Shown one piece after another: positions 59,667 through 64,000 of a DNA stretch of 64,000 nucleotides. Origin of the DNA: an uncultured Caulobacterales bacterium (GTDB lineage: Bacteria > Pseudomonadota > Alphaproteobacteria > Caulobacterales > Maricaulaceae); assembly GCA_947503715.1 (NCBI GenBank), contig CANNER010000002.1:62001-126000 (forward strand), in the 5' to 3' direction. The translations under genes and the position numbers were made by a program. Position 1 is the first letter of the stretch, and every line of letters starts with the position of its first letter. A model generated the notes under the pieces. That model saw only the letters and a list, made by a program, of their open reading frames with translations, searched no databases and had not been told where the DNA came from.

Positions 59667-62330
59667 CTAGAATTCGATATCTACACCCGCATAAAGTAGC
59701 CGCCCACGGGGATCATGAACTTTGGAATCAAACCCACCATTTGTGAAGACCTGTGGTGGGTCCTCATTCAAGGCGTTTATGACGCCGACATTCAAGGATG
59801 TGGCCTCTCCCAGTGCATCGAAATATTGGCCGATATTAAGGCTATAACGTCCATCAATTGTAAAGTGGTCGTCAATTCTTTGGTTCGCATTCTGATCATC
59901 TTCATATGATTCAATATAACGGCCAAACACATCCAAGCGATGCGCGCCTGACATCAAATTGAAGCCTGTGTTGAAGCGATTCTTCGGCACAGATGTTCCA
60001 AAGTTTGTGAAGTTACGGTTACCAACACCACTGACGTCACCCGCCTGAGGGTCCTCAAGGTCATAGTCAAATACGATCGTGCCCTGAATAAACGGCACAA
60101 TAGTCACGGAACCTAGTTCCGCTTCATAGCTGACACCGTAATCCAAACCACTTGTTTGAACGGAGGAGGCGTTCACAAAATTTGTGTTCACCTGAACAAT
60201 AGATCCACCTGCGTTTCGGACAACACGGTCTGCGTCCAGTGGATCAAGATTTGTAACAGCTTGGAAGTTCTCAGCAATAATCACATCGGTAAAGTCAAAA
60301 TTATAGACATCCATATCTATCCGCAAACGATCTACAGGCTCCCACGTAAAACCAAGATTGATGGCTTCCGACTCTTCAGGTGTCAGGTCCGGATTACCTA
60401 AAGTTCGAATGCCGGCAAATGACGTCGCGCCGTTACGAGACGGATCGCTGACTTGGTTTAGCGCTGTCTGCTGCCCATTTTGCTGGTAAACCGTTGGCGC
60501 TCTAAATGAGGTCGAGAAAGAGCCTCGCAAGGACAGGCGGTCCGTTGCTCGCAGCAGAGCGGCAAATTTAGGATCAAGCGTTGAGCCAATAGCTCCCCCA
60601 TAATCCTCATAACGTAGCGCCGCTTGTAGCTCGAGACGGTTATCCCAGAATGGCATGTTAACCTCACCAAAAATGGCGTAAACATCCTGTGAACCTTCAA
60701 AGTCCTGATCGCCGATCAAAAAGCCGAAATTATCTCTCTGGGAATTCGCATCAAATTCACCCGTGAAATCTTCTTTGCGGTATTGAACACCGAGAGCCGC
60801 GGCCAGACCGCTATCCCCGACTGTACCAGAAACCACACCTTCAATGACTTGCAATTCGGATGTCAGGTCCCGCACCTGTGTACCAATGATGAAGTCTTCA
60901 ACTTCGGCACTGTTAGGCGCCGACGTAAAGGATGTTGAGAATGGGTTGAAGAAGGTACCGGCCGCAATGCCGAAACCGCTACAGGCGTCTGACCGGAAAC
61001 CATCCAAAGCACAGCGGAACTCGTCCACTAATGTATCCTCGGTGTTGATGACGTGATTATTCTCAGCCTGAGTGTAAGAGAGGCGCCAATTGTAATCTTC
61101 GTTAAAATCGCCTTCTAGTCCCGTGCTAATGCGCCATGTTTCCGACTCTGTCAGGTTCGGTGAAACCTCTGCTCCGTTACCAAAGGCACGCCCGAGGAAT
61201 ACGGCTCCACCAGGTGCTAATGGCGCTAACGGGCCTGCAAAGATCGTATTTGGGTGATCTGCGGGCACAACTCCACCCAAGAGGAAGGGGAAGGAAGGCG
61301 AGTTACCGCGGATAGCTTCATTATCCGCATAACTAAACTGACCGTCCCACCGAATAGTGTCCGTCAAATCGAAGTCAGCACGCACAAGACCTGTTAGTCT
61401 TTCTTCCTCCGCAACCAGATTAAAGAAGTCACCAAAATCAAAACCGCAAGTCCCGCCGTCAAGTGGCAGTCCGCCCAAGGCACTGCCCGGAGCAAGCACG
61501 TTCGGGAATCCGCCAACTGCAGCACATCCGGGATCAATCAAGGGTAAACCCGCAGGTAGAGGCCCACCCAAAGGAACGAAAGCACCGGGGTTGCCCAAGG
61601 CCGATGTATCATCTTGTGGTCGCGACAAACGCTTTTCTGCCGTCGTCAACGGGGACCGATCTGTATAGCTGAGCGCACCCATAATATTGCCACGATCAAA
61701 GTTTTTACCGACCATGCCTTGTAGGATGATTTCATCCGCACTGCCTGTGCCGTCAACGAACTGATATTGCGCATTCAAACGCACACCATCAAAATCATCG
61801 AACGTGGTGAAGTTGGCCACGCCGGCAACAGCGTCAGACCCATAAGTCGCCGAGGCGCCGTCTTTCAAAATTTCAAGATTTTCAACAGCAATCAAAGGAA
61901 CAAGCGACGCCGTGTCAACAAAGTTGAAACCACCATTATTTGTCGCAGCTGAAAGAACCTGACGCCGTCCGTCCAAGAGGACAAGTGTCGATTGAACACC
62001 CAAACCGCGCAGATTGATGTTGGATGTACCGGTTGTCCCGTTCTGTGTAAAAGCGTCCGGATTATTTTCAGACCCCGTATTAATGGTAAGTGTTTGCGTC
62101 AGGTCAGCGATGTTTTTCGCGCCCGTGCTGCTGATATCTGCTTCTCCAAGGGAGACAACCGGAGAGGCGCGATCCGCTTGCGCTTGCCTCCGAATAAGCG
62201 TTCCTGTGGCAATCACGACGTCTTCCGTCATGGAAGTTTGAGAGTTGTCCTGTGCAAAAGCAGTGGAACCTGAACCGATGGCCGTCACAAGCGCAAGCGC
62301 ACTGGCGGATAGAGAAGCAAATGTCTTCAT
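59667..62330 (-). CDS. TonB-dependent receptor
   Basis: An 887-aa outer-membrane receptor with a signal peptide (MKTFASLSASALALVTAIGSGSTAFAQ), an N-terminal plug (DVVIATGTLIRRQAQADRASPVVSLGEADISSTGAKNIADL..., LRGLGVQSTLVLLDGRRQ, AVENLEILKDGASATYGSDAVAGVANF) and a 22-strand-type barrel ending in an aromatic residue (VDIEF). Two Cys-containing loops occur (GCAAVGG, CGFDFG and CALDGFRSDACSGFG). It belongs to the large OAR/sugar- or oligopeptide-type group common in aquatic alphaproteobacteria; the substrate is unknown. A palindrome lies in its upstream region. Confidence 0.93.
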   Translation of the reverse strand: MKTFASLSASALALVTAIGSGSTAFAQDNSQTSMTEDVVIATGTLIRRQAQADRASPVVSLGEADISSTGAKNIADLTQTLTINTGSENNPDAFTQNGTTGTSNINLRGLGVQSTLVLLDGRRQVLSAATNNGGFNFVDTASLVPLIAVENLEILKDGASATYGSDAVAGVANFTTFDDFDGVRLNAQYQFVDGTGSADEIILQGMVGKNFDRGNIMGALSYTDRSPLTTAEKRLSRPQDDTSALGNPGAFVPLGGPLPAGLPLIDPGCAAVGGFPNVLAPGSALGGLPLDGGTCGFDFGDFFNLVAEEERLTGLVRADFDLTDTIRWDGQFSYADNEAIRGNSPSFPFLLGGVVPADHPNTIFAGPLAPLAPGGAVFLGRAFGNGAEVSPNLTESETWRISTGLEGDFNEDYNWRLSYTQAENNHVINTEDTLVDEFRCALDGFRSDACSGFGIAAGTFFNPFSTSFTSAPNSAEVEDFIIGTQVRDLTSELQVIEGVVSGTVGDSGLAAALGVQYRKEDFTGEFDANSQRDNFGFLIGDQDFEGSQDVYAIFGEVNMPFWDNRLELQAALRYEDYGGAIGSTLDPKFAALLRATDRLSLRGSFSTSFRAPTVYQQNGQQTALNQVSDPSRNGATSFAGIRTLGNPDLTPEESEAINLGFTWEPVDRLRIDMDVYNFDFTDVIIAENFQAVTNLDPLDADRVVRNAGGSIVQVNTNFVNASSVQTSGLDYGVSYEAELGSVTIVPFIQGTIVFDYDLEDPQAGDVSGVGNRNFTNFGTSVPKNRFNTGFNLMSGAHRLDVFGRYIESYEDDQNANQRIDDHFTIDGRYSLNIGQYFDALGEATSLNVGVINALNEDPPQVFTNGGFDSKVHDPRGRLLYAGVDIEF

Positions 62331-62683
62331 GAATTTTCCCGTATATTTTTATTTAGTTATGAAAGCATTCTGCGTCGGAATTTTCTAACTGCCTAACTAA
62401 ATGCAACTTCATATCCCGTTTTTTGAGGCAACTGTTGCTAATTCGCAACAATAGAGCCCTCCTAAACATGAAGCCTTGACGCCGCCTTACGGCTTTGTCA
62501 CAAAACAATTCTACGCGAAGGGAAGCGCGAGCCGGAAAGCCGGACGCGGCCAACTTCATACTCGCGAGGGGAAGCGTGCACTTATCGGGGAGATAAGGCA
62601 GAGCACGGCCAACTTCATAACATTGACGGCGTGAGGTTTCGCGCAAACGCTGGACCCGCGCCCTTATTCAAGGGGACCGTGTT
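62331..62683. promoter_or_regulatory. Divergent regulatory region between the receptor gene and hppA
   Basis: A 353-bp gap without a gene. The left part holds the receptor promoter, an AT-rich stretch and a palindrome TGTTGC-N6-GCAACA (62433-62438 / 62445-62450), a possible regulator site. The right part holds the tandem RNA motif described separately, then about 65 bp of presumed leader with AAGGGG at 62671-62676 before the hppA ATG at 62684. Confidence 0.6.
62514..62619 (+). promoter_or_regulatory. Tandem structured RNA motif in the presumed hppA leader (candidate riboswitch)
   Basis: Two units share the flanks CGCGARGG-GAAG at the left and GCCAA-CTTC-ATA at the right. Unit 1 (62514-62560): P1 GAAG 62522-62525 with CTTC 62554-62557; P2 CGCG 62526-62529 with 62545-62548; P3 CCGG 62532-62535 with 62540-62543; bulge GCCAA 62549-62553. 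Unit 2 (62563-62619): P1 GAAG 62571-62574 with CTTC 62613-62616; P2 CGTGC 62575-62579 with GCACG 62603-62607; P3 CTTATC 62581-62586 with GATAAG 62592-62597; bulge GCCAA 62608-62612. A C-G pair in P2 of unit 1 is a T-A pair in unit 2. P3 stems are unrelated in sequence. Confidence 0.6.
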
Positions 62684-64000
62684 ATGGCTCTTTATCTGAT
62701 TATCGCGGCGGGGGTTCTCGCCGTTCTCTACGGGATTGTGACCCGTGCCAGTTTGATGAAAGAATCGACAGGCAATGAACGTATGAATGAAATCGCGGGC
62801 GCGATTCAGGAAGGCGCGAAAGCCTATCTCAACAAGCAATATAAGACGATTGCTATTGTGGGTGTCGTTGTTGTCGTCATTCTGTTCGCGCTGTTCCAGA
62901 ACTTGATTGCACCGCTTGGGTTTATCATCGGCGCGGTCCTGTCAGGCATCGCGGGCTATGTCGGCATGCTCGTGTCTGTGCAGGCCAATGTTCGCACGAC
63001 GGAAGCCTCGCGAGAGTCGCTGGGCAAAGGTTTGAACGTTGCGTTCAAAGCCGGCGCGATTACGGGCATGCTCGTCGCGGGTCTCGCGCTTCTCGGCCTC
63101 GCTATTTATTATATGCTGCTCAAAGGTCCGATGGGCGCGGATGAGCGCGGCGTGATTGACGGGCTGGTCAGCCTGTCCCTCGGCGCGTCACTCATCTCGG
63201 TCTTTGCGCGTCTCGGCGGCGGTATCTTCACCAAGGGCGCAGATGTCGGCGGCGACCTCGTCGGGAAAGTCGAAGCGGGTATTCCCGAAGATGACCCCCG
63301 CAACCCCGCGACCATCGCGGATAATGTTGGTGATAATGTCGGCGATTGCGCAGGCATGGCGGCCGATTTGTTCGAGACTTATGTCGTGACAATTGCGGCA
63401 ACGATGATCCTCGGCTCCATCCTCTTCGGTGCTGTACGCGAGCTCGCGCTCTACCCGATGGCGATTGGTGCGGTTTGTATCATCACGTCGATTATCGGGA
63501 CCTATTTCGTTAAACTCAGCAAGGGATCCACGAATGTGATGGGCGCTTTATATAAAGGTCTTATTGCAACGGGTGTTCTGTCCGTCGCGGCCATTGGTGT
63601 GCTGACGCATCAAATGCTCGGCTTTGGCGACGTCGCCAATACGGGCTTTTCGGGCATGGACCTGTTCCTCTGCTCAATCGTCGGTTTGGTGATTACCTTC
63701 CTCATTGTTATGGTCACGGAATATTATACGGGTACAAAATACCGCCCCGTCAGATCCGTCGCTGCCGCGTCCGAGTCCGGACACGGTACCAACGTCATTG
63801 CTGGCCTCGCCGTTTCCATGGAAGCGACCGCTATTCCAGCGCTCATTATCGTCGCCGGTATCATTATCACGTTTAGCCTTGCAGGTCTCTACGGCATTGC
63901 GATTGCCGTGACGGCTATGCTTGGCGTGGCGGGAATGATCGTTGCGCTCGACGCCTTCGGTCCTGTGACCGATAATGCGGGCGGCATTGCCGAGATGGCC
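62684..64000 (+). CDS. hppA: Membrane-bound proton/sodium-pumping pyrophosphatase, 3' part outside the window
   Basis: The first 439 residues of a membrane pyrophosphatase that couples PPi hydrolysis to H+ or Na+ transport. It begins [21 protein letters not shown] and continues with the conserved [78 protein letters not shown] (about 180-238, the PPi/Mg site; family consensus has GADVGADLVG, here [10 protein letters not shown]) and several helices. The residue that separates K+-dependent from K+-independent types lies beyond the window. AAGGGG is 8 bases before the ATG. Confidence 0.95.

Follow-up and report, generated by a model that had tools for sequence, protein, structure and literature searches.

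In glycine (gcvT) riboswitches, two similar tandem aptamer domains share one expression platform, and ON switches are known among them (PMC9481103, PMC7266159). Guanidine-II (mini-ykkC) riboswitches likewise place a tandem of small hairpin units, similar to each other, before a single gene (PMC9481103), and in the THF-II (folE motif) riboswitch the gene is directly preceded by a small and simple aptamer of the hairpin type (PMC6800512). Here, we describe a leader with features of each of these systems, upstream of hppA in a 64,000-nucleotide stretch of DNA (the window). Our favored interpretation, held with fair though not high confidence, is that the hppA leader is a cis-acting translational ON switch with two copies of a small aptamer-like domain. 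Judged by sequence comparison, it probably represents a new riboswitch class.

Results

Two tandem units lie directly upstream of hppA

An earlier note on this DNA had described two adjacent structured copies in the presumed hppA leader, and inspection of the window sequence bears this out. The copies form one RNA element directly 5' of hppA, with unit 1 at 62514-62560 and unit 2 at 62563-62619, both on the + strand, and a spacer of 64 nt separates unit 2 from the hppA ATG at 62684. The 5' blocks are CGCGAAGGGAAGCG in unit 1 (62514-62527) and CGCGAGGGGAAGCG in unit 2 (62563-62576), while the 3' block of both units, CGGCCAACTTCATA, ends at 62560 and 62619, respectively. Both copies have the layout CGC-GARG-GGAAG-(P2 and variable tip)-GCCAA-CUUC-A. 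Thus, in unit 1, CGC is followed by the 5' strand of P1 (GAAG, 62517-62520), one side of an internal loop (GGAAG, 62521-62525), P2 (CGCG, 62526-62529, with CGCG, 62545-62548), the other side of the loop (GCCAA, 62549-62553) and the 3' strand of P1 (CUUC, 62554-62557). The corresponding parts of unit 2 after its CGC are GAGG (62566-62569), GGAAG (62570-62574), CGUGC (62575-62579) with GCACG (62603-62607), GCCAA (62608-62612) and CUUC (62613-62616). The apical tips of the two units are unlike, and a P2 pair that is C-G in unit 1 is T-A in unit 2, as had been reported. In addition to inspection, both units are matched by a covariance model; unit 1 is further supported by covariation in P2, and unit 2 by blocks that are nearly invariant in 40 leaders. 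By single-sequence folding, the window leader is mildly better than its shuffles (z -1.7); chance is excluded not by this fold energy but because the same pair is conserved in 40 distinct leaders.

The sequence CAACTTCATA at 62404-62413 had been proposed as the remnant of a third, degenerate unit. We rejected this candidate: the 10-mer stands alone, upstream of the hppA promoter and with no 5' partner, and none of the other 39 leaders contains it. It falls in the intergenic region common to hppA and a divergent upstream gene (59667-62330, - strand), whose 887-aa product is a TonB-dependent-receptor-like protein, named by eye from its sequence.

The tandem pair is confined to one family and always precedes hppA

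A covariance model built from 68 units detected the tandem pair in all 18 genomes of the window's genus and, across the whole family, in 43 of 137 genomes; exactly two units were present in 41 of the 43 carriers. The next gene encodes HppA in every one of the 40 distinct leaders that we read, the window's own among them. The motif is conserved beyond this genome. Nor does it behave as a dispersed DNA repeat, the other possibility raised in the earlier note: the whole genome contains two matches, both at hppA. Carriers include a 'Hyphomonadaceae bacterium' (NCBI; leader L072) and a 'Hellea sp.' MAG (leader L113), Hellea being placed by NCBI taxonomy in the Robiginitomaculaceae, Maricaulales. 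These two leaders were the only real hits in a loose pattern scan of genome contigs, which otherwise returned mostly chance matches.

Other searches agree on a narrow distribution. With an earlier covariance model, 29 of 398 genomes in the order gave matches; among these 29, weak single matches in G087, G204, and G296 came without a second unit and were taken as chance. A 13-mer search gave matches in 28 of 60 related genomes, part of them by chance at unrelated places. Outside the window's own genome, the model built from 68 units found no element among 385 class-wide and 299 phylum-wide genomes, with the proviso that searches over more than 40 genomes used stricter filters, under which very divergent forms could be missed. 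We also considered a special HppA lineage that carries the motif beyond the family and discarded it: the best HppA proteins of other families are ~73% identical, the motif is absent from the leaders read there, and the model has no match. In other genera of the family, hppA is ordinary and lacks the motif. Seven hppA leaders from relatives that lack the tandem motif (L187, L191, L197, L198, L199, L200, and L203) have in common a short G-rich stretch, such as GGGGAGGG, ~80-120 nt before hppA and soon after a GCATAGTCC-like promoter, which may be another conserved leader element.

Two carriers are unusual. Genome G016 has two pairs on two contigs, in hppA leaders (L017 and L030) whose motif pairs are of differing types; one of these leaders may be foreign, because the genome shows 4% contamination. 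In genome G356, the model matches one unit, and a degenerate first unit is readable by eye (L171, 1555-1602, - strand; CGCTGGGAAAGCG ... CGACCAGCCTGCA); its second unit is intact, so that this genome offers a natural example of first-unit decay. In the same genome, a bacterial small SRP RNA (RF00169; L171, 1719-1815, - strand) lies ~120 bases upstream of the motif.

P2 covaries around a near-invariant internal loop

Across the 68 units, P2 covaries strongly, with U-A, C-G, G-C, and A-U pairs at the same positions, and none of 500 shuffles reached its score. These units always stand before hppA, and the leader has the conserved, covarying fold expected of a riboswitch.

The register of P1 is less straightforward. 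The earlier note had drawn P1 as GAAG/CTTC with a GCCAA bulge, which is possible, but unconstrained RNAalifold instead picks GARG/CUUC, five nt further 5'. The unit 1 variants TCTC, ACTC, and CTCC break the GAAG register, whereas two of them fit the alternative, with UCUC pairing with GAGG and CUCC with GGGG. With GARG/CUUC, 314 of 316 P1 cells are paired (7 of 2000 permutations do as well), compared to 309 with GAAG/CUUC, and the whole structure contains six pairs changed on both sides rather than four; few events underlie this evidence. P1 of unit 2 never varies, so its support comes from unit 1. From these alignments, the GAAG/CTTC register is probably wrong.

The GARG/CUUC register leaves a 5x5 internal loop, GGAAG/GCCAA, that is near-invariant in both units. 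Over the 40 leaders, the only variable positions in the unit 2 blocks are the base that opens the 5' block and the one after CUUCA; the tips range from 11 to 50 nt. This comparison upholds the description of conserved flanks around a variable but paired tip, in a tandem, structured, cis-acting element of the hppA leader. The unpaired loop bases are more conserved than the helix bases, a pattern as in ligand pockets.

Protein sites, too, typically have invariant internal loops, and we weighed a model in which the GGAAG/GCCAA loops are bound by an RNA-binding protein, possibly dimeric, that shifts the pairing at the Shine-Dalgarno sequence and start codon proposed below. A dimeric protein would suit an mRNA with two identical sites whose spacing is nearly fixed, and a single target gene would suit autogenous-type control. 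However, HppA is an integral membrane protein, making autogenous binding unlikely; Rfam 15 contains no known protein-binding leader that resembles this one; and each unit has ~20 near-invariant bases, which exceeds the need of most protein sites. On balance, we regard a protein reader as unlikely.

The minimum free energy fold also draws a helix, P0, between CGCGA of unit 1 and UCGCG of unit 2. Its covariation amounts to no more than one case, a level reached by 514 of 2000 permutations. Such pairing between the 5' flanks would be a possible contact between unit 1 and unit 2.

The element lies between a conserved predicted promoter and hppA

A TTGACG at 62476-62481 (+ strand) is the predicted -35 element of the hppA promoter, and its position is conserved in the 40 leaders: in 37 of them, a TTGA precedes unit 1 by 36-41 nt, and the remaining three have TTGC at a similar place. 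Spacing from this element predicts a -10 near 62499-62504 and a transcription start near 62511 on the same strand. Because the -35 is conserved at a fixed distance, the start is predicted to fall a few nt before unit 1. Transcription of the motif together with hppA, which the earlier note had presumed, thus gains support from a conserved promoter directly before the motif, although a generic sigma-70 promoter scan did not score the TTGACG. No terminator-like site was found in the leader.

This arrangement bears on whether the motif acts at the DNA level, as an operator or repeat. The units lie downstream of the conserved promoter, and their conserved blocks stand 11-50 nt apart with a covarying P2 between them. 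Moreover, the motif is found nowhere else in these genomes. We thus consider a DNA element extremely unlikely, even though CGCG and GGCC are palindromic and repeated.

The gene itself, hppA (62684-64000, + strand, continuing past the window), encodes a membrane-bound proton-pumping pyrophosphatase of 695 aa. The full protein carries the signature GNTTKA, which we take to mark the K+-independent type. The earlier note had suggested that the leader might sense an ion. We found no supporting evidence for ion sensing, and the reading of K+ as the ligand is weakened by this signature. Nine of the 40 leaders have ppa, encoding a soluble pyrophosphatase, as their close upstream neighbor in the same orientation (a ppa signature is found at 0.54-0.59 kb), with the motif and its promoter sitting between ppa and hppA; two further leaders have ppa within 1.4 kb. 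Full ppa genes are present in L072 (2378-2902, - strand) and L113 (1856-2380, - strand), both among the nine. By gene content, this neighborhood points to PPi metabolism, without fixing the sensed ligand.

Unit 2 is predicted to compete with the translation start for one strand

The 3' strand of unit 2 is complementary to the hppA translation start region. In the window, an anti-start arm, UCAUAACAU (62615-62623, + strand), overlaps the 3' strand of P1 in unit 2 and is predicted to form a 9-bp helix with GUGUUAUGG (62679-62687, + strand), which includes the hppA start codon. Unconstrained RNAalifold recovered this arm/start-codon helix from nine leaders of the window type. The best arm helix covers the Shine-Dalgarno sequence in 20 of the 40 leaders (for example, CUUCAUAA with UUAUGRGG) and the start codon in 14 (UCAUAACA with UGUUAUGR). 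In the remaining six it lies at another site, mostly pairing CUUCAG with CUGAGG 34-54 nt upstream of the start. Helices of at least 6 bp were found in 36 leaders; the arm makes just 5 bp in L169, L173, L174, and L219.

In five leaders (L009, L011, L013, L016, and L170), the sole good Shine-Dalgarno-like site, GAGGG, lies 34-54 nt upstream of the hppA start, with a GC-rich hairpin between. In leaders of the CUGAGG group, such a hairpin may bridge the GAGGG Shine-Dalgarno sequence and the start codon.

The arm pairing is kept while both strands change between genera (CAUAA/UUAUG, CAUUAU/AUAAUG, CAG/CUG, and CAUG/CAUG). Pairing of each arm with its own leader beat re-dealt pairing in 5000 of 5000 permutations, a test inflated by relatedness, as are the other permutation tests here, the element being confined to one family. 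The arm helix and P1 of unit 2 compete for one strand, and the outcome of consensus folding depended on the set of leaders: one set gave P1, another the start-codon helix. The fold with P1 is less stable than the optimum by a median of 2.2 kcal/mol, with a similar gap when calculated with the GAAG/CUUC register. When P1 was forced, 32 of 40 leaders showed a higher predicted accessibility of the start region; the window's own leader showed no rise (0.40 to 0.37). Together, the common arm and the compensatory changes predict an expression platform that is exclusive with the aptamer fold.

A start site under a helix of 8-9 bp, with few strong pairs, in most leaders would also suit an RNA thermometer or a passive translation-control or stability element, in which the arm helix melts with temperature or sets a constant level without a ligand. 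A thermometer requires neither invariant internal loops nor a second, distant unit, yet the loops of both units are nearly invariant, and we judge this explanation improbable.

Discussion

Comparison among genomes, at the level of sequence, establishes the tandem pair, P2, tight linkage to hppA, and an alternative pairing. These observations are consistent with a model in which transcription begins at unit 1 and, by default, CUUCAUAACA (the 3' strand of unit 2) is paired downstream with the Shine-Dalgarno sequence or start codon, keeping hppA translation low. When unit 2 adopts the conserved fold, with P1 (GARG/CUUC), the GGAAG/GCCAA loop, and P2, this strand would be held in P1 and the start site freed. 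We propose an ON switch because the start site would be covered by default and free once unit 2 folds. A small ligand at the internal loops would drive the transition.

What might that ligand be? HppA consumes PPi, and a tandem, cooperative riboswitch that senses PPi or a directly linked energy metabolite would turn on a PPi-consuming proton pump. This is a speculative assignment, and we think it more probably wrong than right by a wide measure. No PPi riboswitch was found in the literature searched.

Two units sharing one platform suggest that the units cooperate, a behavior discussed for the glycine and guanidine-II classes (PMC9481103), and the two copies may bind cooperatively. If the leader is a riboswitch, it would form a new class, one in which the two-unit build appears to be obligate and the controlled gene belongs to energy metabolism; we found no riboswitch described for this gene. 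Our literature search, largely of open-access main texts, found no link between hppA and riboswitches, the one co-mention being hppA in a proteome table. RNA switches restricted to a family, as this one appears to be, can escape libraries built on broad conservation. With units of ~50 nt, a clear alternative pairing, and a single target gene, ligand hunting and switching tests should be simple.

The earlier note could assign the motif to no known class, and comparison to Rfam 15 concurs: the window leader had no match, even with the threshold relaxed to E up to 10 (nothing above chance), and the motif in six relatives likewise matched no family. THF-II RNAs are not tandem and belong to a different gene, and share no sequence match with the hppA leader in Rfam 15. 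The glycine riboswitch, also with two domains and one platform, has another sequence, fold, and gene than the ~50 nt units described here, and its Rfam model does not match them. Guanidine-II riboswitches, whose Rfam models likewise match neither the leader nor the six relatives, bind their ligand via conserved tetranucleotide tip loops; in the hppA leader, by contrast, it is the tips that vary, from 11 to 50 nt, and the internal loop that is conserved.
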